The notes below the pieces were generated by a model. The model searched no databases. It saw only the letters and a program-made list of their open reading frames with translations, and was not told the origin of the DNA. Shown piece by piece: positions 1-37,005 of a stretch of DNA of 64,000 nucleotides. Location: the NCBI GenBank assembly GCA_004172865.1, contig SEBV01000007.1:124001-188000 (forward strand), given 5' to 3'. The DNA is from Gammaproteobacteria bacterium. GTDB taxonomy: Bacteria > Pseudomonadota > Gammaproteobacteria > Pseudomonadales > Cellvibrionaceae. The stretch's first letter is position 1. Each line of letters starts with the position of its first letter. Made by a program: the position numbers and the translations under genes.

Positions 1-623
1 TGGCCATAGCACGCAGTGAAGGTTATGACTGCTATACCATGAGTTTCGATTATGGTCAGCGCCATCGCGTGGAATTGTTTGCTGCTGAGCGCACCGCGAA
101 AGCCATGGGTGCAATTTCACACAAAGTTATCAATTTGGATTTGCGCACCATTGGCGGCTCTGCATTAACCGACGAATCTATTGCTGTTCCTGAGCATGAA
201 ACACCTGGAATTCCTATCACTTACGTACCTGCACGCAATACCGTTTTTTTATCGATTGCTTTAGGTTGGGCAGAAGTTTTAGGTGCGGAAGATATTTTTA
301 TTGGCGTTAACGCGGTGGATTTTTCTGGTTACCCTGATTGTCGCCCTGAATATATTGCCGCGTTTGAAAAAATGGCAAACCTCGCCACTCGCGCAGGCGC
401 AGAAGGTGGCGATTTAAAAATTCGCACGCCGTTAATTGATTTGACCAAAGCTGATATTGTGAAAGTAGGTTTAGGTTTAGGCGTTGATTACAGCCTTACT
501 GTTTCCTGTTACCAAGCCAATAACAAAGGCGAAGCTTGCGGTAAATGTGATAGCTGCCGCTTACGCAGAAATGGCTTTGAGCAAGCGGGAATTGCCGATC
601 CTACGCTTTATGCGTCAGTGTAA
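1..623 (+). CDS. queC: 7-cyano-7-deazaguanine synthase QueC (5' truncated by window edge)
   Basis: QueC converts 7-carboxy-7-deazaguanine to preQ0 with ATP and ammonia, in the cytoplasmic queuosine pathway. The reading frame is already open at base 3, and the residues before the first in-window ATG ([12 protein letters not shown]) match the QueC N-terminal region. The true start and the ATP pyrophosphatase P-loop therefore lie upstream of the window, and the ATG at 39 is internal. The C-terminus carries the zinc site as four cysteines in [18 protein letters not shown]. The last 23 bases overlap the 3' end of the convergent GGDEF/EAL gene. Identification is confident; only the N-terminus is missing. 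Confidence 0.95.
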
Positions 624-3600
624 TAATCTCACGTAGCTGTTGTTCAAATTCTGCAATCGGAACCGGGTGGCCAAAATAATATCCCTGAAACATGGGGCAG
701 CCATTCAGTTCTAAAAATTCTTTTTGCTCTTTGGTTTCCACGCCTTCTGCGAGCACATTTAAATTCATATTTTTTGCCATAGCGATAATCGTACACACGA
801 TGATGGCATCATTGGGGTCGATAGTAATGTCGCGCACAAAAGATTGATCAATTTTTAATTGATACAAAGGCAATCGTTTTAAATAGGACAACGACGAGTA
901 ACCTATACCAAAGTCATCCATCGCAAACGAAATTCCGTGGGACTGCAACTCCTGCATTTTTTCAATACTTTGATCCACATTTTTTAGCAGTGAGCTTTCC
1001 GTTAGTTCAAGTTTTAACTGCAGCGGATTAATATTGCTTGTGCGCACAATATTCAATACATCCTCTACAAAATTAACTTGATTAAATTGCACGGGGCTAA
1101 CATTTACAGAAATAGTTAAGTGTGAATAGTTTGAATTATTACTCCATGCAGAAATTTGCGCACAGGCAAATTTAATAACGTCTCGTCCGATGCCCACAAT
1201 TAAACCGGTCTGCTCGGCGACGGGGATAAAATCCGAAGGTGGAATCATGCCTTTGGTCGGATGTTTCCATCGCAACAATAATTCAGCACCTACCGCCTGA
1301 CCGCCGGAATCAACTTGTATTTGATAGTAAGGAATTAGCTGATTTTCAAACTCAAACGCTTTGCGTAAATCCGATTCAATATTCGCACGGGTTTCCAAAC
1401 GCGATTGCATATGTGGATCAAAAAAACGTATGGCGTTACGGCCACTATCTTTTGCTTGATACATAGCAACATCGGCGTGACGCAATAGATCATCTATAGA
1501 GGTTGTATTGCTATTAAATAAATTCACGCCGATGCTAATCGTGCAGTGAAATACGGTTTGCTGAAGCGGATAGGGTAGGTTAATTAATTCGTGCAGCTGT
1601 TCGGCTCGCGTTTTTGCTTCAACAGCTGCCAATTCTGCATCCGTATGGAGATGATCAAACACGACTACAAATTCATCGCCACCGAGTCGTACGGCTAAAT
1701 CGGTCGAGCGAATAAAATTATTAATACGTTCTGCGACTTGAATTAAAAGTTGGTCGCCTATGTGATGCCCGCGCGTGTCATTTAGTAATTTAAAATGATC
1801 GAGATCAATAAATAACAACGCTGCGTGGTCGCCAGTACGAGCACTCTGTGCGGTAATTAATTTTAAGCGATCCAGCATCATGCGTCGGTTGGGAAGACGT
1901 GTTAGGGGATCAAAAAAAGCAAGGTTAAAGATTTTTTCCTGATCATTGGCGCGGCGTAATTCACCTGAAATACGCTCGGCAAAAATCAACATAAGTGATT
2001 GTGCTTGTGCTGAGATTGGACGCGGCGTTTCAGCTAGCGCAATCAAGCTACCGATAATATCGCCTTCGGTATTTTTTATTGCTACACCTAAAACACTTTC
2101 TATATTTGCCTTCCCAAAAATCGGCGTGTTAGGGTAAAAATTCGCGGCACCTGCCGCAATAAAGCAAATGTTATTGCGCAAAATGTCGTGGCTTGGCGTG
2201 TTGTCGCAAACATAACGGAAATTCGCTTGGCGCTCGCCGTTATAGAGGTAAGTGTGCGTATTTGCTTCATTATTGTTGTGTGGATCATTAATGCTGATCA
2301 TAACGTGCTCGGCACCTATGGCATCGCTTAATGATTTTAATAATGTTTCAAAAAAATCTGGAGCTGAGGCAGAATCTATAGCGGCCGTTCTGAGCGCAGC
2401 ATCCAGACGCTTACGCTCTGTGATGTCTTGAAAGGTACCCTGCAAAATAGGTGTATGTTCGTCACGGTTAATATTGCCTTGCGCATGCAACCAAAATATT
2501 TTGTCGTCTATCTTAATGCGAAATTCTACGGACAACATTGAGATGTTAGCGAGGCAATGATTGAGAGAGTAACGGAATGATTTTCGATCTGCAGTGAGTA
2601 CCACTGATGAAATAAATTTTTTAAATTGACCGCGTAATAATTTTTCAGGCAAGGCAAACAATTCAGCCATGGATGGGCTAAATGTGTATTCATCTGTCTC
2701 GGTATTCCAACTCCAATGCGCAACTCGCGCCATGATTTGTGCGCGCTCAAGCCGTTGCTCACTCTCTCCTAATGCATGAGCAACTTGCTTGCGCTCAATC
2801 AACTCCTGTTCGACTTGTTGCATAGCTCTGCGTTGTGGGCCCAGATCAATATCAAGGCAATACATTTCTTTGTCGTTGGGTGTTTGAATTAATACGTGAT
2901 TTGAATAAACCCAAACTTCGTTGCCGGATTTATCCTTCAATGGAATTTCGCCTGAGGGAATTTCGCTCCCTAACAAATGCCAATCTTCAATCGCATTGTA
3001 AACACCTTCGCGCATAAATCCGGGAATAATCAAATCTTCAAGTTTCTGGCCCATGGCTTCAGTGGCTTTGAATCCGTACAGATCTTCGCTAGCTTTGTTC
3101 CAGAAAATAACTTCATGAAAACGGTTGTAGCCCTGCACGGCGATGTTGGTCGTACTTTCAAATATTTTGCGGAATCGCTGTTCGTTGGCGAGATCATTTT
3201 TGTGATCGAAGATGCGCTTGGTAATATTGCGAGCGAGACAAATAAAGCGGTCGTCATCGCGATTTTCGCCAAGCCGTTTACTAATAGAAAGTTCAAACCA
3301 TAAGGAGCCCGGATGCGGCGGATGTTCATATTCAATCGTCTTGCCTTGTGAAATGCCCCAGTCATCGGCTTCGTTAAATGCTTTTTTCCAAACGGGCAGG
3401 GCCTTCGCCGGAAAAATTTCACTAACGTGTTTTCCTAAAATGACGGCTGGCGAAAAACTGGTAATTGGAGACGAACCGTTCGCAGATAAGCAATTGCCCT
3501 CGCGATCTATTTCAAATAATAAATCAGGAATAGTTTGAATAACCGCTTCGATATGTTTTTGCTGTGCCTCTCGCTCAATATCCAATTGACGCAAACGTGC

Positions 3601-4461
3601 AGATTTAAAAGCTATGTCGGCGCTTGCGATAGTGATCATTAAACTCAGCAAAGTTAAACCGGCAGAGTAAGACCAAATTAAATAATAACTAATGTGAGCA
3701 TCCACCGATGAAAACGGACCCAATCCATTTACTGTGGACCACACCGCAATAAAACTAAAACCTATAGTGCACAGCGCGCTACCTAATAAACCCAGGCGCA
3801 ATGCTGCCCAAGCCACGCATATAAAACTGGTGTAAACGATGGGGAGGTGTAAGTCATTGCCAAGGTTGTTGAGCGGAAAACAAATTAAGGCTACGACAAA
3901 GCAGACCGTTAAAATAACCAGCGCCTCAACTTTGCGTGAGAAAATCCGTTCGGCATTTTCGGCAGTCATACCGATAAAGAACGGAGCCGCCAGCAGCGCT
4001 CCCAAACTGTCGCCCATCCACCAGGAAAGAAAAGTATATCCATCTATGCTGATGCCGTTAACGATCAGCCCAAGGCAACCAATAGTGGCGGGGACGAGCA
4101 TGCTGAGGCTGGCAATAGTGAAAAAGCATAAGGCATTGGCACGATGTAAAACCGAAATCTGGCAGTTCAGGCGTTGCAACAGCAAAAATGCCACTACCGG
4201 CCCGAGGGTATTGCCGAAAGCGATTGTGCTGTTTGCAGCGAAATTCGTCCCCGTCAGCATGTTGATGCATAGTGCGCCGATAAAGATCCCCGGCCATACA
4301 TGGATTGACCAGCGGTACAGCGCGGCAATGGCGATTCCCGTGGGCAGCCAGAAAAGAGTGACTTTAGAGGTAGTAAAGGGTACGCAAAGCCCTAGCCAGC
4401 CGGTCGCAAAGTAGGCAATAGCGATCACGACTATACGGGTGAGTCGTGTGAGGTTCGGCAT
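601..4461 (-). CDS. MASE1-PAS-GGDEF-EAL membrane cyclic-di-GMP enzyme
   Basis: A membrane-anchored sensor that probably makes and/or degrades c-di-GMP. From the N-terminus it has a hydrophobic MASE1-like region (about residues 5-300, many membrane segments), two or three PAS domains (about 305-690), a GAF-like stretch (about 690-840), a GGDEF domain with intact RLGGDEF near residue 927, and an EAL domain near 1059. The EAL signature reads AELLLRW, so the catalytic Glu is kept although the motif is ELL. The DDFG loop and the AEGVET motif are intact, so phosphodiesterase activity is plausible. I chose the ATG at 4461 because AGGGA sits about 7 bases upstream; an in-frame ATG at 4494 would add 11 residues. 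It converges on and overlaps queC. Confidence 0.9.
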
Positions 4462-4791
4462 TAGAGTTCCCTGCCGGGGTGGTGCAAGCTGCATGCATGT
4501 CTCTCTAGGGGAAATGTCGTCATGTTGGCGTGGAGTTTCTATTTTTTTGGCGAGTGATTTATCTCATGAGTGAGCGAACCGTCCGAATCTGAGTATAGTC
4601 GTGTTTAAAAATGCGACGCACTGCTAAATCATAGATTGGCTTTCAGGTTTTGCTGTTAAATTGATAGATTGATTTGTTAATTCATGTGCAGATGGTGCAT
4701 ATAGATCTACACATAAACTTCGCAACTTGTATTTTAAATAAACAATCCGGATTCTTTGGCTCGGGTTTATAACTGCAAGCGTAAAAAAGGC

Positions 4792-25905: not shown

Positions 25906-28900
25906 ATGACGAATATCTGGTTGGAATATAAACAAGCTATTGTAAACGTAATGGCACAAGACCATCATCGTTTACTGCGCCGTGTGATTGAGCTGGAAAA
26001 ACTTGCGCGCGCGAAAAAACCTTACGAGCTAGCCTTGGAAAAATGGCAAGCGCAACTTGCACGCTCGCAAACTGCCGTTGCAAATCGTCAACAACTTATT
26101 CCCACTAATATTCAATTTCCTGATCTTCCTGTTTGTGAAAAACGCGAAGAAATTGCACAAATTATTGCGGCTAATCAAGTTGTAGTTTTAGCGGGTGAAA
26201 CAGGTTCAGGTAAAACCACACAGATTCCTAAAATTTGTTTAACACTTGGGCGTGGTACGCGAGGTTTAATTGGCCACACTCAACCGCGTCGTATCGCAGC
26301 AAATACGGTTGCCAATCGTATTGCTGAAGAATTACAAACCAAGCTTGGCGAAAAAGTTGGTTATCAAGTTCGTTTTAGTGATCAATCCAGCGAACAAACT
26401 TTAATTAAAGTAATGACCGACGGCATTTTATTAGCCGAAATTCAGAACGATCCTTACTTAAATAAATACGATACCTTAATTATCGATGAAGCTCATGAAC
26501 GCAGCTTAAATATTGATTTTTTGCTCGGCTATTTGAAACAACTTTTGCCGCGTCGCCCCGATTTAAAATTAATTATTACGTCGGCTACCATCGACCTACA
26601 AAAATTTTCTGAGCATTTTAATAACGCGCCCATCATAGAAGTTTCTGGTCGAACCTATCTTGTAGATGTTTGGTATCGCCCATTGTTTGAATCTCAAGCA
26701 AAAGATGATGAAGGTGAAGATACCGAACAAGATATTTACAGCGCAATGGTCGAGGCAGTTCACGAAATTGAATTGCATGAAAAAACCGGAAGCGGTAAGC
26801 GCGGCGGCGATATTTTAATTTTTCTCAGCGGTGAACGCGAAATTCGCGAAGCGGCAGAAGCTCTACGCAAAGCGCAATTTGCCCATATGGAGGTCGTACC
26901 TTTTTACGCGCGTTTAAGTTTGGCAGAACAGCAACGCGTATTTGCAGCTCACACTGGGCGCCGAATTGTGTTGGCAACAAACGTGGCGGAAACATCAATT
27001 ACGGTGCCGGGAATTCGCTATGTAATTGATCCCGGTTTTGCACGCATATCGCGTTATTCCTATCGCACAAAAGTACAGCGGTTACCTATTGAACCCGTTT
27101 CGCAAGCCAGCGCAAATCAACGGAAAGGCCGCTGTGGTCGTATTGCGGAAGGTATTTGTATTCGTTTGTATAGCGAAGAAGATTTTAATAATCGCCCGGC
27201 ATTTACAGATGCAGAAATTCTCCGCACCAACCTCGCCGCTGTTATTTTGCAAATGTTGCAATTGCGCATGGGCGATATTCACAAGTTCCCGTTTATTGAT
27301 GCGCCGGATCATCGCTTAATTAGCGATGGTTATAAATTGCTGGAAGAGCTGCAGGCTGTTAATGCTAAAAATCAACTCACGCCTGTTGGTGCTCAACTTA
27401 GCAAATTACCGCTTGATCCCCGTCTTGCGCGCATGATGTTGGCTGCACAAGAACATTCTTGTATCCGAGAATTATTAATTATTGCCAGTGCCTTGTCGGT
27501 GCAAGATCCCCGTGATCGCCCAGGTGAAAAACAGCAGGCGGCTGATCAAAGTCACCGCCGCTTTTGGGCGGATTTCTCGGACTTTGCGGGCTTTGTAAAT
27601 CTTTGGGATTATTTTGAAACGCAGCGTCAAGAATTATCGCAAAACCAATTGCGAAAGTTGTGTAAGAAAGAATTTCTAAATTATTTACGTTTACGCGAAT
27701 GGCGAGATATTCACCATCAGTTATCGCTAGCAATAAAAGAATTGGGTTTTAAATCCAATACGGTGCCTGCTGGTTATGATGCAGTACATAAAGCCCTGTT
27801 GAGTGGTTTGCTCGGTAATTTAGGTTTCAATCACGAAGAGCGTGAATATCTCGGTGCACGTAATCGAAAGTTCAGTATTTTTCCGGGCTCATCTTTAATT
27901 AAAAAAACGCCAAAATGGATTATGGCTGCGGAGTTAATTGAAACGTCGAAATTGTTTGCACACACGGTTGCCAAAATTGAACCTGAGTGGGCGCTTGCTG
28001 CTGCAGAGCATTTGGTTAAACGACAATATTTTGAACCGCACTACAACAGCCACACGGGCCAGGTAATGGCGTATGAAAAAGTTAGCTTGTATGGTTTGAC
28101 GTTAATAGAAAAAAAATCTGTTCCCTATGCGCATATAGATCCTATAGTAGCGCGTGAAGTTTTTATTCGCGCTGTTTTTCTGGAGGGACAATATGCACAA
28201 CATCCAAAGCGAAAGAATCTTCAGCATAAAGGTCCAGTAAATGATTTTTTTACACATCAACAAGATTTGTTAAAGGAATTAGATGACCTTGAAGCAAAAT
28301 CTCGTCGCCGCGATATTCTTGCGGATGAGCAAGTTATTTTTGAATTTTACAATGAGGTTATTCCAGAGCAGATTATCAATTTAACCGGGTTCGAAAGTTG
28401 GCGAAAAAAAGTCGAACATGAAAACCCCAAAATTTTATATATTAGTCGTGAAACCTTAATGCGCCATGGCGCGCTTGATATTACGCACGCGCAATTTCCG
28501 AACGAACTGGAATGGCGCGGAATGGTGTTTCCATTAACTTATCATTTTGAGCCAAATCATCCTGATGACGGTGTCAGTATTCACGTTCCTATGAGTGTTT
28601 TGCACCAATTGCCGGAGCAACGTTTGGAATGGTTGGTGCCGGGAATGTTGCGCGATAAATGTATTAACTTGGTGAAAAGTTTACCGAAATCGTTACGCAA
28701 ACATTTCGTGCCCGTGCCCGATGTCGTTGATAAAGCCTTAGCAGCCATGTCTCCAGATAATAAACCATTAACAGATGCTTTAGGTTTGCAATTAAAACGC
28801 CAAACCGGTGTTGATGTTAGTGCTGACGCATGGCTTGAAACACAGGTCGATAATTATTATCGCTTCAACATTAAAGTGGTTGACGACAAGGGAAAAGTAA

Positions 28901-29865
28901 TTGCGAGTGGTCGCGATTTATTGCCGTTGCGTGAAAAATATCGCGCACAAGTGCAGCAAAATATTCAGTCTGCAGCGACTAATATTGAGCGTGATAACAT
29001 TACACAATGGGATTTGGAATCTTTACCGCAGGCAATCCAATTGCAACGCAACGGAATTGGTATTCGCGCTTATCCTGCGCTTGTTGATAAGAATAATTCA
29101 GTAGCTTTGCAAGTCCTGGATAATCCGCAACAAGCGTTGGAATTAACGCAACGTGGGCTTGCGCGTTTAATTTATTTACAACTTAATCAAACCGTAAAAT
29201 ATTTACAAAAGGAATTGCTGAAAGGGCAGGATATTGCTTTGACATTTGCCGGAATTGGTTCGCGCGATCAGGTAGTTGATGACATTATTCTCGCGGCGAT
29301 AAAACAATTGAGCGTAAATGATCAATCGCAATTGCCTCGTGATAAAACTGACTTTGAAAAGCGCGTCGCTAGCATTAAAGACAAATTAGTCGCAGTGGCA
29401 GAAGAAATTTGTAGTCATTTACTGGCGAGTTTAAAATTGCTAGTTGATGTTAAAAAAAGCATAAAACAACAAAAAAATGCATTGGTTTTGGCGTTTGCAT
29501 TAGGCGATATTGAAGAACAATTAAAGCAATTATTTTATGTCGGGCTAGTTTATAAAACGCCAGATGAATGGTTGCGCCAATACCCGCGTTATTTGCGTGC
29601 GATTCAACTGCGGTTGGAAAAAGCGTCGCTTAATCCGCAAAAAGACAAATTGACTTTGCTAGAAATTCAACCTTATTGGCAACGCTTGCAAGAATTTATC
29701 GAGAAAGAAGGCGCGCATGTAATAACGCAGAATTCTGCGCTAGTAGAGTACCGTTGGTGGATAGAAGAATTGCGTGTGTCACTGTTTGCCCAAACTCTCA
29801 AAACCCAAATCCCTATATCCCCGAAGCGGTTAGACAAGCAATGGGAAGCCGTTTTAAGTCTCTGA
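25906..29865 (+). CDS. hrpA: ATP-dependent RNA helicase HrpA
   Basis: A DEAH-box RNA helicase of 1319 residues, close to the E. coli length. Walker A is GETGSGKTTQIP, Walker B is IIDEAHERS, and motif III is ITSATIDL. Motif VI reads QRKGRCGRIAEGICIRLYS, then come HA2/OB domains and the long HrpA-specific C-terminal region. In E. coli HrpA resolves stalled ribosomes and processes fimbrial mRNA. The gene is followed by a 15-bp hairpin at 29895-29928. Confidence 0.96.
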   Translation: MTNIWLEYKQAIVNVMAQDHHRLLRRVIELEKLARAKKPYELALEKWQAQLARSQTAVANRQQLIPTNIQFPDLPVCEKREEIAQIIAANQVVVLAGETGSGKTTQIPKICLTLGRGTRGLIGHTQPRRIAANTVANRIAEELQTKLGEKVGYQVRFSDQSSEQTLIKVMTDGILLAEIQNDPYLNKYDTLIIDEAHERSLNIDFLLGYLKQLLPRRPDLKLIITSATIDLQKFSEHFNNAPIIEVSGRTYLVDVWYRPLFESQAKDDEGEDTEQDIYSAMVEAVHEIELHEKTGSGKRGGDILIFLSGEREIREAAEALRKAQFAHMEVVPFYARLSLAEQQRVFAAHTGRRIVLATNVAETSITVPGIRYVIDPGFARISRYSYRTKVQRLPIEPVSQASANQRKGRCGRIAEGICIRLYSEEDFNNRPAFTDAEILRTNLAAVILQMLQLRMGDIHKFPFIDAPDHRLISDGYKLLEELQAVNAKNQLTPVGAQLSKLPLDPRLARMMLAAQEHSCIRELLIIASALSVQDPRDRPGEKQQAADQSHRRFWADFSDFAGFVNLWDYFETQRQELSQNQLRKLCKKEFLNYLRLREWRDIHHQLSLAIKELGFKSNTVPAGYDAVHKALLSGLLGNLGFNHEEREYLGARNRKFSIFPGSSLIKKTPKWIMAAELIETSKLFAHTVAKIEPEWALAAAEHLVKRQYFEPHYNSHTGQVMAYEKVSLYGLTLIEKKSVPYAHIDPIVAREVFIRAVFLEGQYAQHPKRKNLQHKGPVNDFFTHQQDLLKELDDLEAKSRRRDILADEQVIFEFYNEVIPEQIINLTGFESWRKKVEHENPKILYISRETLMRHGALDITHAQFPNELEWRGMVFPLTYHFEPNHPDDGVSIHVPMSVLHQLPEQRLEWLVPGMLRDKCINLVKSLPKSLRKHFVPVPDVVDKALAAMSPDNKPLTDALGLQLKRQTGVDVSADAWLETQVDNYYRFNIKVVDDKGKVIASGRDLLPLREKYRAQVQQNIQSAATNIERDNITQWDLESLPQAIQLQRNGIGIRAYPALVDKNNSVALQVLDNPQQALELTQRGLARLIYLQLNQTVKYLQKELLKGQDIALTFAGIGSRDQVVDDIILAAIKQLSVNDQSQLPRDKTDFEKRVASIKDKLVAVAEEICSHLLASLKLLVDVKKSIKQQKNALVLAFALGDIEEQLKQLFYVGLVYKTPDEWLRQYPRYLRAIQLRLEKASLNPQKDKLTLLEIQPYWQRLQEFIEKEGAHVITQNSALVEYRWWIEELRVSLFAQTLKTQIPISPKRLDKQWEAVLSL

Positions 29866-30079: not shown

Positions 30080-31777
30080 ATGAAACGGATCATTTTTGCC
30101 TTTTTTGTATTGGGCTTATCGGTTGCTTCGCTGGCTGAAACAACTGCTACTTCAGCTACCGCGGCATCAAAGCCAGTTGCCATTAATGTCGATATCACCC
30201 AACAAAAAGCGCCTCTCAAGCCTATTTGGGCCTGGTTCGGTTATGACGAACCCAATTACACCTACATGAAAGACGGCAAAAAATTGCTGACCGATATAGC
30301 AGCGCTCAGTCCGGTTCCTGTTTATGTTCGTGCCCACAATTTGATGAATACCGGCGATGGTACGGCAGCCCTGAAATGGGGTTCGACCAATATGTACACC
30401 GAAGACAAAGACGGCAAACCAATCTATGACTGGACGATTGTCGATAAAATTTTTGACACCTACATTGAACGCAATATGAAACCGCTTGCTCAAATTGGTT
30501 TTATGCCTGCAGCGCTCTCTGCAAAACCACAGCCTTATCAGCACACATGGGCGCCAGGCAAGCCTTATCCAGAAATTATGACCGGTTGGGCATATCCTCC
30601 TAAAGATTACACAAAATGGGCTGACCTTATTTCCGCATGGGTAAGCCATTCGGTTGAACGTTACGGTAAAACTGAAGTTGAAAGTTGGTATTGGGAATTG
30701 TGGAATGAGCCAGACGGTTTTTATTTAATCGCGCCCAATGTTGAAGAAGAGTATTTCAAGATGTATGACTACGCATATTTCGCCGTGAAACGCGCACTGC
30801 CGAGCGCGCGTATGGGTGGGCCACATACAGCACACGGTAATAATTTTTTTAAACATTTTATCGAACACTGTTTGCACGGAAAAAATTACGTTACTGGAGC
30901 GGTAGGAACACCAATTGATTTTCTGGCGTTTCATGCGAAAGGCGAACCGCGTGTTGTGAATGGCCGTGTGCAAATGAGCATGAGTCGACACTTCAAAAAT
31001 ATTAGCGATGGTTTATCAATTGTGGCTTCATTTCCAGAGCTAAAAAATATTCCGGTGATTATTGGTGAATCAGATCCTGAAGGTTGCGCTGCTTGCGGAA
31101 TGAAAACCAATCCAGAAAATGCGTATCGCAACGGCACGCTCTATTCAAGTTACACAGCAGCTTCGATTGCACGTGAATATGATTTGATGGAAGAGTACGG
31201 CGTAAATTTATTAGGTGCGGTGAATTGGTCATTCGAATTTGAAGATCAACCCTGGTTTGAAGGCTACCGCGATTTAGCAACCAACGGTGTAAATAAACCC
31301 GTGCTTAACGTATTTAGAATGTTGGGCATGATGCAAGGCAATCGTGTTGCTGTAAGTGGCGACCTAGCTTACAACGCGCAATCTATCCGTGCATCCAGCG
31401 TACGCGATGTAAAAACTGATATTAATGCATTGGCAGTTGCAGATAAAAAATCTATTAGCGTTCTGGTATGGAATTATCACGACGACGATATTTTGGATGC
31501 AGGCTCACCAGTTGAAATAAATATAACTGGAATTGATGCTAAAGAAGTAAAGCTTAATCATTACCGCATCGATACTGAAAATAGCAATTCTTACACTACA
31601 TGGAAAGCGATGGGATCGCCTCAGAAGCCAACTGCGGAACAAATTAAAACTTTGGAAAAATCAAGTGAGTTAGCTTTATTACAAAAACCTACAACGATAA
31701 AGGTAAAAAATCATCAAGTGACTTTAAAAATGCAATTGCCTCGTCAAGCCGTTTCATTAATAAAATTAACCTATTAA
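30080..31777 (+). CDS. Secreted GH39-like glycoside hydrolase
   Basis: A 565-residue exported enzyme. A signal peptide (about 1-19, ending SLAE) and an Ala/Thr linker precede a TIM-barrel of GH39 type. The acid/base is E210 in ELWNEPDG and the nucleophile is E330 in VIIGESDPEG; the spacing of 120 fits the clan GH-A family. A C-terminal beta-sandwich follows (about 440-565). GH39 members act on beta-xylosides, iduronides or related uronic-acid sugars, and the exact substrate is not clear. It lies 29 bases upstream of a cytochrome c-sugar dehydrogenase gene, suggesting hydrolysis coupled to periplasmic oxidation. Confidence 0.8.
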   Translation: MKRIIFAFFVLGLSVASLAETTATSATAASKPVAINVDITQQKAPLKPIWAWFGYDEPNYTYMKDGKKLLTDIAALSPVPVYVRAHNLMNTGDGTAALKWGSTNMYTEDKDGKPIYDWTIVDKIFDTYIERNMKPLAQIGFMPAALSAKPQPYQHTWAPGKPYPEIMTGWAYPPKDYTKWADLISAWVSHSVERYGKTEVESWYWELWNEPDGFYLIAPNVEEEYFKMYDYAYFAVKRALPSARMGGPHTAHGNNFFKHFIEHCLHGKNYVTGAVGTPIDFLAFHAKGEPRVVNGRVQMSMSRHFKNISDGLSIVASFPELKNIPVIIGESDPEGCAACGMKTNPENAYRNGTLYSSYTAASIAREYDLMEEYGVNLLGAVNWSFEFEDQPWFEGYRDLATNGVNKPVLNVFRMLGMMQGNRVAVSGDLAYNAQSIRASSVRDVKTDINALAVADKKSISVLVWNYHDDDILDAGSPVEINITGIDAKEVKLNHYRIDTENSNSYTTWKAMGSPQKPTAEQIKTLEKSSELALLQKPTTIKVKNHQVTLKMQLPRQAVSLIKLTY

Positions 31778-31806
31778 TTTTTAATATTGTTTGATGAGAG
31801 AAAGAT

Positions 31807-33204
31807 ATGATTTTTAGAAGTGTAATTATGTGTTTGATGTTGGCAGCCGCAATGTCAAGCATTGCGACAGAGGCTATTGATGGTGCAGCTATATATAAGC
31901 AAAACTGCGCCGCTTGTCATGGTCTAAATCGAGAGGGTGGGGTTGGTGTAAATTTAGCCGATAAAGTATGGTTAAAAGTAAAGCCAGAAAAGGATGACTT
32001 GGTGAAGTTTATCAACCAGGGTTCGGTGGCGGCAGGAATGCCTGCCTGGCAAAGTGTTCTTGATAAAGAAAAGATTGCTGCAGTTGCCGAATTTTTATTA
32101 AATCCCGCGGCGACTAACCTGGTAGCAACAAACTCTGCTTCAAAAGCTGATCCTTATCCTGAATTAAAAAAATTAATTTTACCTGCCGGTTTTTCAATTT
32201 CGGTTTATACCGATCAAGTTGAAAATGCTCGAGCTATGGTGGTTGCGCCATCGGGCGTTGTATTTGTTGCATCGCGAACCACAGGAAAAGTATTTGCAGT
32301 TATTGATAGCAATAAGGATTATGTCGTTGATAAAGTCATCACTGTGGCAGAGGGGTTAGATTCGCCCATTGGCGTTACTTATATAAATGGTGCTTTATTT
32401 ATTTCCGAACGTTTTCGTGTAGTTCGTATCGATAATATTGAAAAAACTTATACCAAGCATCCAGTATTCAAAGTTGTTAAAGATGATTTTCCTCAAGATA
32501 AATGGCACGGCGAAAAAATTATTAAAGCCGGACCAGATGGAAAACTATATATACCTATTGGTGCACCCTGCAATGTGTGTGATAAGGAGTCAGAACCTTT
32601 CGCAAAAATCTACCGCATGAATCCCGACGGTTCTGATTTTGAGGTCTATGCCAAAGGCATTAGAAATTCTGTAGGTTTTGCGTGGGAGCCGACAACTAAA
32701 GAGCTATGGTTTACGGATAACAATCGCGATCTTATGGGCGACAATATGCCTTCTTGTGAATTAAATCACGCACCTAAAGCGGGAATGCATTTTGGTTTCC
32801 CCTACTGTCATAGCGGTGTGGTGCTAGATCCTGAGTTCGGCAAAGACAGAAGTTGCAATGAGTTTATCCCTCCGGCTGCAAATCTAGGTCCCCATGTTGC
32901 GCCACTAGGTTTAGCTTTTTATGAAGGATCACAGTTTCCCGAGCAATACAAAAATCAATTGTTTGTTGCAGAGCACGGCTCCTGGAATCGCACGCAAAAA
33001 ATTGGTTATCGTGTGGAATTGATTACGATGTTTAATAATCAAGTGGTTTCAGATACGCCGTTTATTGAAGGATTTGTCCACGGCGATGAAGTGCTAGGTA
33101 GACCAGTAGATGTAGCTTTCTTAGCAGATGGCTCAATGTTAGTTTCAGACGATTATCTTGGCAGGCTTTATCGAGTTACTTATACTGCGCCCAAGAAAAT
33201 TTAG
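31807..33204 (+). CDS. Periplasmic cytochrome c-PQQ sugar dehydrogenase fusion
   Basis: A 465-residue exported fusion. A signal peptide (about 1-20) is followed by a class I cytochrome c domain (about 22-100) with heme motif CAACH (C34, C37, H38) and Met78 as the likely sixth ligand. A six-bladed propeller of the glucose/sorbosone dehydrogenase family (about 115-460) follows. It should oxidise a sugar or aldose with PQQ and pass electrons through its own heme to the respiratory chain. It shares a direction and a 29-base gap with the GH39 gene. Confidence 0.85.
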   Translation: MIFRSVIMCLMLAAAMSSIATEAIDGAAIYKQNCAACHGLNREGGVGVNLADKVWLKVKPEKDDLVKFINQGSVAAGMPAWQSVLDKEKIAAVAEFLLNPAATNLVATNSASKADPYPELKKLILPAGFSISVYTDQVENARAMVVAPSGVVFVASRTTGKVFAVIDSNKDYVVDKVITVAEGLDSPIGVTYINGALFISERFRVVRIDNIEKTYTKHPVFKVVKDDFPQDKWHGEKIIKAGPDGKLYIPIGAPCNVCDKESEPFAKIYRMNPDGSDFEVYAKGIRNSVGFAWEPTTKELWFTDNNRDLMGDNMPSCELNHAPKAGMHFGFPYCHSGVVLDPEFGKDRSCNEFIPPAANLGPHVAPLGLAFYEGSQFPEQYKNQLFVAEHGSWNRTQKIGYRVELITMFNNQVVSDTPFIEGFVHGDEVLGRPVDVAFLADGSMLVSDDYLGRLYRVTYTAPKKI

Positions 33205-33235: not shown

Positions 33236-33277
33236 AAAAGTGCTCTCGTTATTTTTAACCTGAGCACTTTTTATTTT
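33236..33277. terminator. Bidirectional terminator between the dehydrogenase and bufferin genes
   Basis: AAAAGTGCTC (33236-33245) pairs with GAGCACTTTT (33263-33272), followed by further T/A-rich sequence. It separates convergent operons, and the last DUF2063 codons lie next to its right arm. Confidence 0.8.
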
Positions 33278-34073
33278 AAGCTGATGGTTCTGTAATAATT
33301 CCAATTATCAATTCACTTTTAAGCCACTGTTGCAAATATTGTGCTGTTTGCAGCGGTACTTTTTCTTCTGCAAACCATTCGCACAAACCACCGCATACAT
33401 TCGAAAAATTATGATCAGTTATAAAAGCATTTAGTGCCCAAGCTTCTGCAGCGTCGAGAGGCCGGTAAACTACTTGCAAATTCTCTCGCCAAATTAGCCA
33501 GGTTTGAAATTCCGTTGCAATGACGGGTTCAATAGTGATTCCATCTTTTATCAGCGCTTGCCACTGTAGTGGTGCATTAATCACGCAGTTTAATAGTTGT
33601 AATGAGGGATGAAATACAAGTTTCATCGTCATCCAGGATTCTGGTGGTAGTGCGCGAATGTGATCGAGCGTTGAAACGATTTCATCAGCCGCGTCAAACG
33701 TCATAGCTTGCGCCCATTCAAATTCCGCTAGTTCTACGATATGAAGTTGCTCGTGCCAATCAGTATTTGATTTTAAAAACTCAGGTAGCTTTTCACCAAA
33801 CCATCGTAATGATGGATGATGCGATGGATGTGCTGATATAAATTCATTTGCAAGATTTGTAAATATATCCTCACCCAAAAATAGTTTTAATGCCGGATAA
33901 TCGTTGCTCAATGCATCTATTAAACGCAAACGGTAAGCTTCATGATAAATATGTAACCGTGCTTCCTTAGAAAATGCAGGCGTTTCCAATGTCAGATCGT
34001 CAGCGTCACGTTTTTTATCCAATAAAAAATCCTGAAGATCGCTTTGTAATTCAGCAAGGGTTTTATGGCTCAT
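33276..34073 (-). CDS. bufC: DUF2063 protein, bufferin/HvfC-type partner (BufC/GigB)
   Basis: A 265-residue protein with the DUF2063 N-terminal domain (about 7-95, with FLLDKKRDADDL, IYHEAYRLRL and DYPALKLFLGE), followed by a less conserved C-terminal half. In related systems this protein helps the MNIO enzyme bind or present the precursor peptide. It is the last gene of the minus-strand operon, 2 bases after the doxX stop, so it is probably translationally coupled. Confidence 0.85.
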   Translation of the reverse strand: MSHKTLAELQSDLQDFLLDKKRDADDLTLETPAFSKEARLHIYHEAYRLRLIDALSNDYPALKLFLGEDIFTNLANEFISAHPSHHPSLRWFGEKLPEFLKSNTDWHEQLHIVELAEFEWAQAMTFDAADEIVSTLDHIRALPPESWMTMKLVFHPSLQLLNCVINAPLQWQALIKDGITIEPVIATEFQTWLIWRENLQVVYRPLDAAEAWALNAFITDHNFSNVCGGLCEWFAEEKVPLQTAQYLQQWLKSELIIGIITEPSA

Positions 34074-34075
34074 AA

Positions 34076-34528
34076 TTATTTGTGAGTTAACCAGTAATCA
34101 ATTGAAGCTTTGCCCGCACCAGCAATAGCGAGCCAGAAAAATATGGCGAGGTATGCAGTTTCAGAGAATCCTAAAAGTGTATCCAAAGAATCGACTTGCT
34201 CCCACAACGCACTTTTAATCGCAACTATCATAATTACACCCAGAATGCCGGCAGAAATCCTTGTGAATAATCCAAGTATTGTCAGAATGCCACACACAAA
34301 CTCCGCGCCGGAAGTAAAAGGAGTAAGTACGTGTGGTAAAGGAATTCCCCAGCTAATAAAATTCTCAGTAATTTGATCGAGGTTTTGTAATTTACCCCAG
34401 CCAGCAGTTATAAATATTTCACCAACAACCAAGCGCGCAAATAATGGGCCGAGCCATTGAATATAAGATGCCACTTTTTCTGGCCAACCTAAGGTAATAT
34501 CGATAAAAGAATTAAATAAAGTTTTCAT
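34076..34528 (-). CDS. DoxX-family membrane protein of the bufferin locus
   Basis: A 150-residue inner-membrane protein with four predicted helices. Family features are FARLVVGEIFITAGWGKL, FTSGAEFVCGILTILGL and the C-terminal helix before DYWLTHK. DoxX proteins accompany DUF2282/MNIO/DUF2063 genes (HvfX, GigT); their role may be quinone-linked redox or export. The gene lies between the MNIO and DUF2063 genes, 18 bases after the former. As I recall, gigPABT places DoxX last. Confidence 0.85.
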   Translation of the reverse strand: MKTLFNSFIDITLGWPEKVASYIQWLGPLFARLVVGEIFITAGWGKLQNLDQITENFISWGIPLPHVLTPFTSGAEFVCGILTILGLFTRISAGILGVIMIVAIKSALWEQVDSLDTLLGFSETAYLAIFFWLAIAGAGKASIDYWLTHK

Positions 34529-34546
34529 AATCTGTCCCTTGAGTGA

Positions 34547-35404
34547 TTAAGCGCTAATGGCGGTTTGATGTTGTGTAAGTACCCCAGCGGAGATGGTGCG
34601 AGCTTTTTGCAATTCAGTTAATAACGTAGTTAAAGGCGGAATATCATCATCTCGTTCAATCATGGTGCTGATATGGCCAAAGCGCCTTACGCTTTCTGCG
34701 TATAGATCCCACACCGAATCAATAATTTCATGATCGTGCGTATCTATGCTGTAGTCCCCTTTATTTAAATGACCAGCCAGATGAATTTGTTGGATTCTGT
34801 CTGCAGGCATAGCTTCTAAATAAATGAGAGGATCAAAGTCGTGATTGTGTGCGCTTACGTGAATGTTGTTAATGTCGAGTAAAATTAAGCAGTCTGCCTC
34901 CTGCGCCACTGCACGCAAGAATTCCCATTCTGAAATCGTGGAATGCTGATAAGTTAAATAGCTGGAAACATTTTCTAATAAAACTCGTTGTCCTAAAAAA
35001 TCTTGAACTTGTCTAATGCGTGTAACTAAATGCGTTAAAGCTTCTTCGGTATAGGGTAGTGGCATTAAGTCATGCAAATTAATCCCCTGAGTTCCTGTCC
35101 AGCATAAATGGTCAGAAATCCATTTGGGCTTCACACGTTGCGCTAATTTTTTTAAATCTTTTAAATAATTTTCGTTGAGTGAATCTACACTGCCGATAGA
35201 AAGTGAAACACCGTGCATAACTACCGGGTAGCGTTCACAAATTCTGTCCAGATAATAAAGCGGCTTGCCACCTGCAATCATATAGTTTTCGCTTAGAATT
35301 TCGAGCCAATCTATCGGATGACGATTCTCAATGAGATCCAAATAGTGTTCACTGCGTAAGCCGAGCCCAAAACCTAAATGTGGTTGTAAATTGTTAGGTG
35401 TCAT
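34547..35404 (-). CDS. bufB: MNIO (DUF692) iron oxidase, BufB-type RiPP-modifying enzyme
   Basis: A 285-residue TIM-barrel enzyme of the multinuclear non-heme iron-dependent oxidase family. Motifs visible are FGLGLRSEHY, EILSENY, VMHGVSLSIGS, VLLENVSSYL, LLDINNIHVSAHNHDFD and HLAGH, which carry the His/Asp/Glu iron ligands in characterised members. These enzymes oxidise cysteine side chains of precursor peptides (thiooxazole or oxazolone/thioamide products). The likely substrate is the Cys-rich peptide encoded 87 bases upstream. Confidence 0.9.
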   Translation of the reverse strand: MTPNNLQPHLGFGLGLRSEHYLDLIENRHPIDWLEILSENYMIAGGKPLYYLDRICERYPVVMHGVSLSIGSVDSLNENYLKDLKKLAQRVKPKWISDHLCWTGTQGINLHDLMPLPYTEEALTHLVTRIRQVQDFLGQRVLLENVSSYLTYQHSTISEWEFLRAVAQEADCLILLDINNIHVSAHNHDFDPLIYLEAMPADRIQQIHLAGHLNKGDYSIDTHDHEIIDSVWDLYAESVRRFGHISTMIERDDDIPPLTTLLTELQKARTISAGVLTQHQTAISA

Positions 35405-35432
35405 CTTTAAACCTGAAAATAAATTTCTTATG

Positions 35433-35469
35433 AAAAAGGCTGTAAAATTATTTCTCTCACAGCCTTTTT
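35433..35469. terminator. Intercistronic hairpin (attenuator) between precursor and MNIO genes
   Basis: AAAAAGGCTGT (35433-35443) and ACAGCCTTTTT (35459-35469) are perfect 11-bp arms with a 15-base loop. Read on the minus strand it ends in T5, as a terminator would. It lies between bufA and bufB, so partial termination could make precursor mRNA exceed enzyme mRNA, a common feature of RiPP operons. Confidence 0.8.
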
Positions 35470-35491
35470 AGCACTTGAGTGATAACGGAAA

Positions 35492-35755
35492 TTATTTTGC
35501 GTCTTTAATTTCTTTGCCACCTTGTGCAGCGCAGTCTTTAGCGCTTGTTTCTGTAAAGCCTTTACCTTTGCAGCTATTTTGGCCTTTGCATGCATTGGTT
35601 GCAGTTTTACAAGCCGAGTGCCCTTTACATGCATTTACGCCGCCACATTTAACAGTGCCTTCACTTGCAGCAGGCTTATCATCGGCCAATGCAAAACCAG
35701 TAGAGAATAAAGAGGCGGTAGCTAATACGAGTGCAGAAGTAGTCATTTTGTTCAT
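35492..35755 (-). CDS. bufA: Cys-rich secreted precursor peptide, BufA2/bufferin-type metallophore
   Basis: An 87-residue protein. A signal peptide (MNKMTTSALVLATASLF, cleavage near ALA-DD, about residue 24) is followed by a mature part with six Cys in repeated CKG-type motifs (KCGGVNACKGHSACK, then NACKGQNSCKGKGF) and a last DCAAQGG. This matches periplasmic bufferin-type metallophores that sequester copper or other metals after MNIO modification. I chose the ATG at 35755 because GGAG lies 10 bases upstream; an in-frame ATG at 35821 would put 22 residues before the signal peptide. Confidence 0.88.
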   Translation of the reverse strand: MNKMTTSALVLATASLFSTGFALADDKPAASEGTVKCGGVNACKGHSACKTATNACKGQNSCKGKGFTETSAKDCAAQGGKEIKDAK

Positions 35756-36219
35756 GTTGTTGAATCTCCAATAAAGGTATTTAAATGTTTGATTAAGGCT
35801 GAGTTGCTTATGTATTTTCACTCAGCTCATATACTAGATGCATCACAGTTTTATTTGTTACAAAGAAAATTAAATAAAATTTATAAATGTGTTATTAAAT
35901 AAATTTTAATTGGATTGTCTGACAAAAAATAGTTTTACTTAAATTATGAAATGAACTTAAAAGGTGATCTTCCGTCTATTTTTGATTGAATGAAATTTAA
36001 TTCGCTTGATGTCATCGCCCATCAGTTACAATTGTCACTTATGGTATTGCTCGATGCTTTTATAATGGTTGAGCTGACAACCTACTATTTATGCACTTTT
36101 CTAAATAGTGTATTTACAACCTCTTTAAGGTTGTTGTAGCCAAGGACTTTGGGTAGAGTGAAGCATCCTTTCAACCCATCGCAAACCTTTCTGATATTAA
36201 CTCTGCATCTGGCGTATCA
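35756..36219. other. Divergent intergenic region with inverted repeats
   Basis: About 460 AT-rich bases lie between bufA (minus) and mlaA (plus). GCTGAGT (35798-35804) and ACTCAGC (35820-35826) form a perfect inverted repeat that would lie in the bufA leader or promoter. TATAAT at 36061-36066 is a possible -10 for mlaA. Three hairpins follow at 36084-36178. I see no gene. Confidence 0.5.
36084..36178 (+). promoter_or_regulatory. Possible structured mRNA leader of mlaA
   Basis: Three consecutive hairpins can be drawn: ACTATTTA/TAAATAGT (36084-36091, 36102-36109), ACAACCT/AGGTTGT (36116-36122, 36128-36134) and TGGGT/ACCCA (36150-36154, 36174-36178). They lie between a TATAAT and the mlaA start. 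It matches no riboswitch class I recognise. Confidence 0.35.
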
Positions 36220-37005
36220 ATGAACACCACTAACAATTCTCTCCTTAAAGCTTCAATCCTGGCGCTAGCGCTGACTACATATCCTGTGTGGGCTCAAGAC
36301 GAAACCGTGCAAGAAGCCGCACCGGTAGTAGAGTCACCGGCGACTATGATTAAGTCTGCTGTTGATCCTTGGGAGGGATTCAATCGCTCTGTATTTTCAT
36401 TTAATTTAAAAGCAGACAGATATGTATTGAAGCCATTGGCGAAAGCCTATGTGCGCCTCACTCCAAAGTTTTTTCGCCGTGGGGTGGATAATGCCTTGTC
36501 GAATATTATGGAAATTCCAAGTGCATTGAATGGTGTTTTACAAGGTAATTTCCGCAGTGCCGGTCACGACACGGGTCGTTTACTGGTGAACTCTACTATC
36601 GGTTTGGCAGGTATTCTGGATGTAGCCCAATACATGAACTTGCCGCAGACTGATAATGAAGATTTTGGTCAAACATTGGCGGTATGGGGATTGAAATCCG
36701 GCCCTTATTTGGTGTTGCCGTTGTTGGGCCCAAGCACGGTACGTGATACTTCTGCTGTTCCAATCGACTGGTACACCGACCCTAAATACTATATTGAAGA
36801 TGTTGCCACCAAAAATGCGTTGAGAGGTGCATCAATCATCAATGCAAGGGCGAATCTTATGCCTTTGGAAAAAAGTATTACCGGCGATAAATATGTGTTC
36901 TTTCGCGAGGCTTATTTACAGCGCCGTAATTTCTTGATCAATAACGGTGAAGTAGAAGATAGTTTTGGTGAGGAAGAGGATTCTGATAAAGACTCGGGGT
37001 TTTAA
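36220..37005 (+). CDS. mlaA: MlaA/VacJ phospholipid-transport protein
   Basis: MlaA sits in the outer membrane and removes misplaced phospholipids, passing them to MlaC. The 261-residue protein shows DPWEGFNRSVFSFN, NALSNIMEIPSALNGVLQG, FGQTLAVWGLKSGPYLVLPLLGPS and a terminal acidic tail. A signal peptide (about 1-25) is present, but there is no lipobox cysteine, so it is not the classical lipoprotein form. It lies next to the PilZ/RssB/STAS genes as in Pseudomonas. The 3' end overlaps a 9-bp hairpin. Confidence 0.92.
   Translation: MNTTNNSLLKASILALALTTYPVWAQDETVQEAAPVVESPATMIKSAVDPWEGFNRSVFSFNLKADRYVLKPLAKAYVRLTPKFFRRGVDNALSNIMEIPSALNGVLQGNFRSAGHDTGRLLVNSTIGLAGILDVAQYMNLPQTDNEDFGQTLAVWGLKSGPYLVLPLLGPSTVRDTSAVPIDWYTDPKYYIEDVATKNALRGASIINARANLMPLEKSITGDKYVFFREAYLQRRNFLINNGEVEDSFGEEEDSDKDSGF

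Follow-up and report, generated by a model that had tools for sequence, protein, structure and literature searches.

A Buf2-type bufferin operon with doxX between its MNIO and partner genes, and its probable replacement of an EGKCG captophorin operon within a genus of Cellvibrionaceae

A 64,000-nucleotide stretch of DNA from a Gammaproteobacteria bacterium of the family Cellvibrionaceae (assembly GCA_004172865.1, contig SEBV01000007.1, positions 124,001 to 188,000 of the forward strand; hereafter the window) carries on its minus strand an operon that, by its sequence, is a Buf2-type bufferin (captophorin) operon, a kind of system that is already known. Its four genes are the precursor gene bufA2 (35755-35492), the MNIO gene bufB (35404-34547), doxX (34528-34076) and the DUF2063 partner gene bufC (34073-33276), the coordinates being those of open reading frames (ORFs) of the window; 18 bases separate bufB from doxX. 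The gene order A-B-DoxX-C is real and rare, and the evolutionary and regulatory setting of the operon is new as far as could be seen. The whole is, with good confidence, best explained as a Buf2 bufferin operon controlled by an extracytoplasmic function (ECF) sigma factor that has replaced an operon for captophorins of the EGKCG type at a chromosomal site between hrpA and mlaA. An original prediction, made from the sequence of the window, had described a precursor, MNIO, DoxX and DUF2063 set on the minus strand, with DoxX between the MNIO and DUF2063 genes and the last two genes 2 bases apart: all four genes are present in that order and on that strand, the doxX stop at 34076 and the bufC start at 34073 leave 2 bases between them, and the order A-B-DoxX-C is shared by the window and five other genomes of the host genus.

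The product of bufA2 (87 aa, six Cys) passes the bufferin profile on which its reading as a bufferin had been made to depend, with 86.2 bits against the BufA2 model NF050166 (cut-off 60), and is by its sequence a Buf2 (Cys-Lys) precursor; a Pfam profile search assigned it no family, and a profile of the precursor found no relative among PDB sequences. The six Cys announced by the original prediction are there, and the CKG repeats announced with them hold for three of the five core Cys, the first lying in CGG and one in CKT. Their spacing is that of the family: among 215 distinct BufA2-like ORFs scoring 40 bits or more, a few Buf1-like ones included, 164 show C-x5-C-x5-C-x6-C-x5-C. The start codon had been placed 66 bases too early, at GTG 35821; ATG 35755 is taken instead, because GTG 35821 falls inside the predicted leader and because GGAGATT and the ATG that follows it are kept in the alignment of the window with its five relatives of the genus. 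Long precursors matching the BufA2 model twice are encoded in family members outside the genus (L041, L042, L048-L052, L054).

BufB (285 aa) reaches 381.8 bits with the BufB model NF050167 (cut-off 310) and 371.4 bits with the Pfam MNIO family, over its cut-off, and it aligns with 3bww, TglH and MbnB. Residues H64, H99, E144, D177, H208, D221, H223 and E250, invariant in an alignment of seven rows and aligned in turn to MbnB, are presumably the metal ligands. No second MNIO gene was found in the host genome, of which bufB is the sole one found. A tree of the nearest 90 of 191 BufB sequences unites the six of the genus (support 100) without grouping them with other family members, its backbone being weak. 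At the substrate-selectivity position, BufB has Asp253, within ERD-D in the window and in four of five genus relatives and ERD-E in the fifth, L044. Asp at this position is reported to mark Cys-Lys substrates, and Phe the Lys-Cys group (PMC13097082). The MNIO ORFs of the fetched stretches, read by script, agree with this rule: Asp is found in 96 of the 114 whose stretch shows a Buf2 precursor pattern (nine have Ala, one each Glu, Ser and Gly, and six were unread), and Phe in 39 of 39, with no Asp, from stretches with EGKCG repeats. Where Buf2 and DUF2282 patterns occur together, Asp is present in seven of nine, where DUF2282 stands alone seven of eight were unread, and the residue is mixed among the 40 MNIO ORFs from stretches with neither precursor pattern. 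Five EGKCG genomes of the genus also encode a remoter MNIO of 311-346 aa with 7-13 Cys, whose 1.5-kb flanks are free of DUF2063 and DoxX ORFs (L312-L316, in G016, G019, G014, G030 and G027), and another locus (L326, G033:C2, minus strand, upstream of 4314) holds a second MNIO-DUF2063 pair behind a small lipoprotein-like ORF that ends in GGCGH and differs from Buf1, Buf2 and EGKCG precursors.

BufC (265 aa) scores 80.3 bits with PF09836, over the Pfam cut-off. Its model (predicted local distance difference test score, pLDDT, 90.0) matches the MNIO partner NGO1945 (3dee, E 8.7e-7, 229 alignment columns, gaps included) and chain A of the TglHI complex (8hi7, E 2.6e-6, 291 columns, gaps included), which is taken to be the partner TglI; the sequence profile of BufC matches 3dee weakly (E 0.0036). 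As modelled, BufC is a partner of MNIO of the DUF2063-RRE type (PME type 1). Because BufA2, BufB, MNIO, DoxX and DUF2063 all exceed their profile cut-offs, the gene set is not a chance one, and the assignment of a bufferin-type locus, with precursor and MNIO over the curated BufA2 and BufB cut-offs, is upheld. The profile search proposed with it was thus positive for BufA2 and BufB (NCBIfam) and for MNIO, DoxX and DUF2063 (Pfam) and negative at the NCBIfam cut-offs of HvfX (66.4 vs 80 for DoxX) and HvfC (49 vs 142 for BufC).

How rare the order is was counted in three samples, as the original prediction had proposed for relatives. A BufA2 search matched 26 of 144 genomes of the family (19 over cut-off) and 97 of 369 of the class (67 over cut-off), with no match in C. 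vibrioides, the control genome; the family counts use the 19 genomes over cut-off. In the class sample, 78 of 82 over-cut-off clusters were fetched, four whose contig ends just downstream being omitted; 13 of the 78 have no MNIO ORF and two no DUF2063 ORF in the stretch. The phylum sample comprises 80 of 112 further MNIO places, hand-picked and mostly higher-scoring. The fetched stretches were classified by profiles grown from the window proteins; the DUF2063 profile drifted on iteration (177, 218, 266 and 181 hits), and its first-round version at E 1e-3 was used instead. The order B-X-C, X being DoxX, is found in six of 19 family clusters (the window, L040, L044, L046, L047 and L053, all of the host genus), in none of the 65 clusters of the class sample that have both B and C, in one of 79 phylum-sample MNIO clusters (L168) and in none of 11 DoxX-seeded clusters, the figures for B-C-X being five of 19, two of 65, 35 of 79 and none of 11; by these counts A-B-DoxX-C is rare. 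That the order is unique to these operons was rejected, as L168 also has DoxX ahead of DUF2063; this locus (G229, minus strand, 457-4729) encodes an EGKCG precursor, an MNIO, a 509-aa membrane protein, a DoxX of another type and a DUF2063 protein. The bufABC order has been called strictly conserved, and DoxX is listed with the proteins whose genes come after those for MNIO (PMC12452194). This uninterrupted order, a reported regularity of the clusters that stands outside the definition of the peptide, is broken here by DoxX. No report of A-B-X-C was met in what was read of the literature found; the cluster-frequency figures and supplements of PMC12452194 may list it.

DoxX itself (150 aa; model pLDDT 85.6) scores 71.7 bits with PF07681, over the Pfam cut-off. 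A profile search of genome contigs with a DoxX alignment gave 75 loci, many of them from gammaproteobacterial metagenome-assembled genomes (some named Nevskia, Panacagrimonas and Steroidobacteraceae) and from Bradyrhizobium; five loci were dropped as copies, and the tree, made by a quick method from 140 of 145 ORFs (the five from copy loci omitted), is one without named HvfX or GigT proteins. It places the window DoxX in a set of 59 rows (support 98) in which the six of the genus form one clade (99), and for 36 of the other 53 rows the fetched stretch carries bufA2, an MNIO gene or a DUF2063 gene. DoxX proteins whose gene follows a DUF2063 gene fall mostly (34 of 42) in a separate set of 45 rows (98), the remaining eight in two further sets. 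By this placement, the window DoxX therefore belongs to a bufA2-associated lineage, whose genes elsewhere lie ahead of bufA2 or on the opposite strand, and is, as judged from sequence, of another lineage than most DoxX following a DUF2063 gene. An origin of A-B-X-C by a shift of the terminal DoxX of A-B-C-X was rejected, since the tree and an identity of 27% to L039 set the two types of DoxX apart. At five loci (L227, L230, L255, L262, L263), a BufA2-like ORF directly follows a DoxX of the window's clade, and the fetched stretch contains no MNIO ORF. The best match of the DoxX profile among PDB sequences (E 0.0083) was taken as chance, and NACHO/TMEM35A, ranked first for the DoxX model (E 0.23, probability 1.00), is a lead only.

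In all six Buf2 genomes of the genus, the operon lies between hrpA and mlaA. The borders of the site in the window are an hrpA-like helicase gene (DEAH, DUF3418; 25906-29865, plus strand; PF11898, 669.5 bits) and the divergent lipoprotein gene mlaA (36220-37005, plus strand; PF04333, 234.7 bits). The MNIO cluster adjoins hrpA in the five other Buf2 genomes; two genes intervene in the window. Among the 21 genomes of the genus, the 15 that are not Buf2 all have an EGKCG-type A-B-C cluster next to hrpA, with no DoxX in the stretch and, in 13 of them, a porin gene on the side away from hrpA; mlaA lies 8-10 kb off on the same contig in 11, at 39 kb in G023, at 322 kb in G027 and on another contig in G029 and G032. 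Because two further genera of the family (L174, L189) likewise combine EGKCG precursors with hrpA, the EGKCG state is the likelier older one and Buf2 the newcomer. From these sequences, one captophorin operon probably gave way to another at one site and within one regulon, DoxX included, and the direction of the exchange would be from EGKCG to Buf2. The two intervening genes (30080-33204, plus strand), one for GH39 and one for cytochrome c/GSDH, do not stand there in the five Buf2 relatives, and the window site is without the porin and small exported-protein genes that the relatives carry there; a search of the host genome gave no match to the porin of one of them (L321).

The one regulon is suggested by a promoter-like box of the ECF type, TGTAACAAA-N13-CATCTA (35835-35862, minus strand), which starts 107 nt ahead of the bufA2 start; in alignments, all six A-B-X-C operons have TGTAACAAA-N13-C(A/G)TCTA, the inverted repeat of the leader and GGAGATT upstream of bufA2. 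A relaxed form of the box (TGTAAC-18 bases-TCTA) precedes the EGKCG precursor in 12 of 15 genomes of the genus and at none of three loci outside it, as compared to 6 of 1800 and 6 of 5400 dinucleotide shuffles and 3 of 636 window tiles, the operon's own site included. A sigma-70 promoter scan did no better than shuffles (9 vs 9.8). An ECF sigma gene (at least 285 bits) is present in 18 of the 21 genomes, and the three without it (G015, G016, G017) are the same three that are without the box. It is part of a doxX-sigma-anti-sigma arrangement in all 12 EGKCG genomes that have the sigma gene, with the box ahead in 11 (not in G022), and of a box-sigma-anti-sigma arrangement without that doxX in all six Buf2 genomes. 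The small protein after the sigma gene is zf-HC2; in G027, the one genome tested with NCBIfam models, it is an anti-sigma factor (56.6 vs 50) and the sigma-linked doxX is HvfX (241.9 vs 80). The sigma gene of the host (G000:C2:393294-393911) is unlinked to the Buf2 operon and has a degenerate box at its locus, TGTAACATT...TCTCTA. The box is, by its sequence, common to the sigma locus and the captophorin operons, and we infer that the listed ECF sigma reads it; the arrangement suggests that a Buf2 operon can sit in an ECF sigma regulon without a sigma gene of its own. A box also stands ahead of msrP in two Buf2 genomes, G033 (L390) and G026 (L391), while G031 has a near-match and the remaining 13 msrP loci have none.

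An inverted repeat and a hairpin accompany the operon. The repeat of the predicted leader, GCTGAGT...ACTCAGC (35798-35826, minus strand), is mostly GTTGAGG...CCTCAAC in the relatives, where both arms differ together from the window. Between bufA2 and bufB, a terminator-like hairpin (35433-35469, minus strand) folds in six of six operons (z -1.9 to -5.8), with ten consensus pairs, two of them with two-sided changes, and with A-rich and T-rich flanking arms throughout; a consensus terminator scan (8 vs 2.4 in shuffles) did not list it. This hairpin is likely a partial terminator that raises the precursor over the enzymes.

In the mechanism proposed, BufA2 would be made with an N-terminal export signal and be presented in the cytoplasm by BufC, through its DUF2063 and RRE folds, to BufB, whose Asp253 would suit a Cys-Lys substrate. 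The core Cys would be oxidised to 5-thiooxazoles, up to four of them if the first and last Cys pair in a disulfide as in Buf1, after which the modified peptide would be exported and hold excess copper in the periplasm, with DoxX as a dedicated accessory at the inner membrane. The ECF sigma encoded elsewhere would switch the operon on, and attenuation at the hairpin would keep the precursor above enzyme levels. Within the genus, this operon would have replaced the EGKCG operon at the hrpA-mlaA site, its bufA2-lineage DoxX taking the place of the HvfX-type DoxX that is elsewhere encoded ahead of the sigma gene. The chemistry is assigned because relatives show it: MmrA loses four H per Cys, and a copper chelator is reported (PMC12538549); the characterised MNIO-PME1 cases all install thiooxazoles, with support for copper detoxification (PMC13097082); and Buf1 has a disulfide between its first and last Cys, with copper binding in relatives (PMC12452194). 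By analogy with these, the operon product is very probably a chemically modified, copper-holding peptide.

Several points weigh against this explanation. The export signal (basic start, hydrophobic stretch, Ala-rich end) was judged by eye alone. An hrpA tree of 12 of the 21 genomes fits a single exchange, but the branch concerned is weak (46/19), with L325 loosely placed, and at L212, in another family of the order, an MNIO-DUF2063 pair lies near a weak hrpA match (30%) with no EGKCG pattern found there. Of the 53 rows of the DoxX set outside the genus, 17 are from fetched stretches that show none of the A, B and C genes, 25 make up one Bradyrhizobium-type set, and a second DoxX hit is present in G026, G028 and G033. 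The first box pattern, found in six of six Buf2 upstream regions, occurred in only two of 15 EGKCG ones (and in 50 of 6000 shuffles), and it was relaxed after three EGKCG upstream regions had been inspected. A stricter pattern gave 36 hits in the 21 genomes (15 ahead of captophorin operons, 11 ahead of a doxX, 2 ahead of an ECF sigma gene, 1 ahead of msrP and 7 elsewhere), as compared to 23 for the reversed control pattern. The concordance of box and sigma gene (1/1330) ignores kinship, the 21 genomes being related and their concordances not independent, and MsrP was rejected as a general member of the regulon, the box preceding two of 16 msrP loci.

As to the place of DoxX, a tentative proposal is that it may be a required captophorin partner specific to the class of peptide, the HvfX type having been given up and a Buf2-matched DoxX built in between MNIO and partner at the exchange. 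If so, DoxX would take part in the synthesis, export or reduction of the thiooxazole peptide, and its specificity would track the precursor. It is less probable, and on the whole unlikely, that DoxX is a passenger in an ordinary bufferin operon, its place a neutral accident fixed once before six species diverged and the doxX beside the sigma gene lost for unrelated reasons. The six B-X-C operons are one clade for BufB and for DoxX and therefore represent one event, as such an accident would, and DoxX was not seen in the fetched stretch of 57 of 65 class-sample clusters, hence it is not needed next door. However, DoxX is conserved within the genus about as well as BufB and more than BufC: towards the four nearest relatives, identities are 81-85%, 82-86% and 60-62%, and ratios of nonsynonymous to synonymous differences (pN/pS) 0.13-0.17, 0.10-0.15 and 0.29-0.33, respectively (0.13-0.35 overall for DoxX, with synonymous divergence mostly saturated). 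The constant doxX ahead of the sigma gene in EGKCG genomes, nearly always behind a box, likewise speaks against a passenger.

The second rival concerns the peptide, which would serve against oxidative or thiol stress and not copper, an ECF sigma and a zinc-finger anti-sigma linking DoxX, MNIO and methionine sulfoxide reductases in Neisseria and Haemophilus; we consider this improbable. It finds parallels in PMC2893595 and PMC7907618, in the sigma and zf-HC2 anti-sigma genes beside doxX and in the boxed msrP genes of G033 and G026. Against it stand the thiooxazoles and copper detoxification of the characterised MNIO-PME1 cases (PMC13097082), the copper chelator of PMC12538549 and the response of the Caulobacter sigma to metals (PMC3511200), and the two roles are compatible. 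That the gene order is an assembly artefact or an order error can be dismissed almost entirely: the host genome is a draft of 229 contigs, but the order is repeated in five further genomes, and four of these stretches (L213-L215, L217) were also found under public contig names.

HvfX has been called uncharacterized (PMC13419390), and the authors of PMC13097082 state that their assays may lack factors like DoxX. The genus offers a natural swap, in which two peptides use the same site and the same promoter-like box and the type of DoxX changes with the peptide; the function and specificity of DoxX are therefore testable by exchange within one genus. The unlinked sigma gene suggests, moreover, that regulation read from the cluster alone would be missed.

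Among known systems, the GIG operons have a precursor of the DUF2282 type. Those of Cupriavidus and Legionella unite DoxX, DUF2063 and DUF692 in one operon, as here, with DoxX terminal beside DUF2063 instead of between MNIO and DUF2063; the statement in the original prediction that gigPABT places DoxX last fits the numbering of the loci (PMC5413113). The hvfABCX or EGKCG captophorins, including mmr of Microbulbifer, share MNIO and DUF2063-RRE proteins with the window operon (PMC12538549, PMC13419390); this type, which occupies the hrpA-side site in the other 15 genomes of the genus, has EGKCG repeats, Phe at the selectivity position where BufB has Asp, and an HvfX-type DoxX, if any, elsewhere. 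In terms of regulation, the regulon of Caulobacter sigma-F (GTAACC-N16-CGAA) takes in two DUF2282-MNIO operons, a DoxX and YedY/MsrP (PMC3511200), that of Neisseria sigma-E (-10 CGTCTAAH) an MNIO operon with a DoxX-like gene (PMC2893595), and that of Haemophilus RpoE2 a doxX-UPF0276-DUF2063 cluster (PMC7907618). The box resembles the -35 GTAACC of Caulobacter and the -10 CGTCTA of Neisseria; in these two systems, however, the sigma gene lies beside an MNIO operon and a Buf2 peptide plays no part, whereas here sigma gene and Buf2 operon are unlinked. The closest known systems are the Buf2 bufferins, alike in precursor, MNIO and DUF2063-RRE families, six-Cys core and DoxX among the core genes of the clusters (PMC12452194, PMC13097082). 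By comparison with the strict bufABC described for them, DoxX splits bufB and bufC here, and whereas Buf2 clusters are described without sigma genes and Buf1 clusters with them, an unlinked sigma gene appears to control this Buf2 operon (PMC12452194). A precedent for an insertion between bufB and bufC exists in the 'adjamnio-VI' genes, which lie between the MNIO and PME-1 genes of buf1 operons; there, the inserted gene encodes an unknown protein in a Buf1 system, and here it encodes DoxX in a Buf2 system (PMC12452194).

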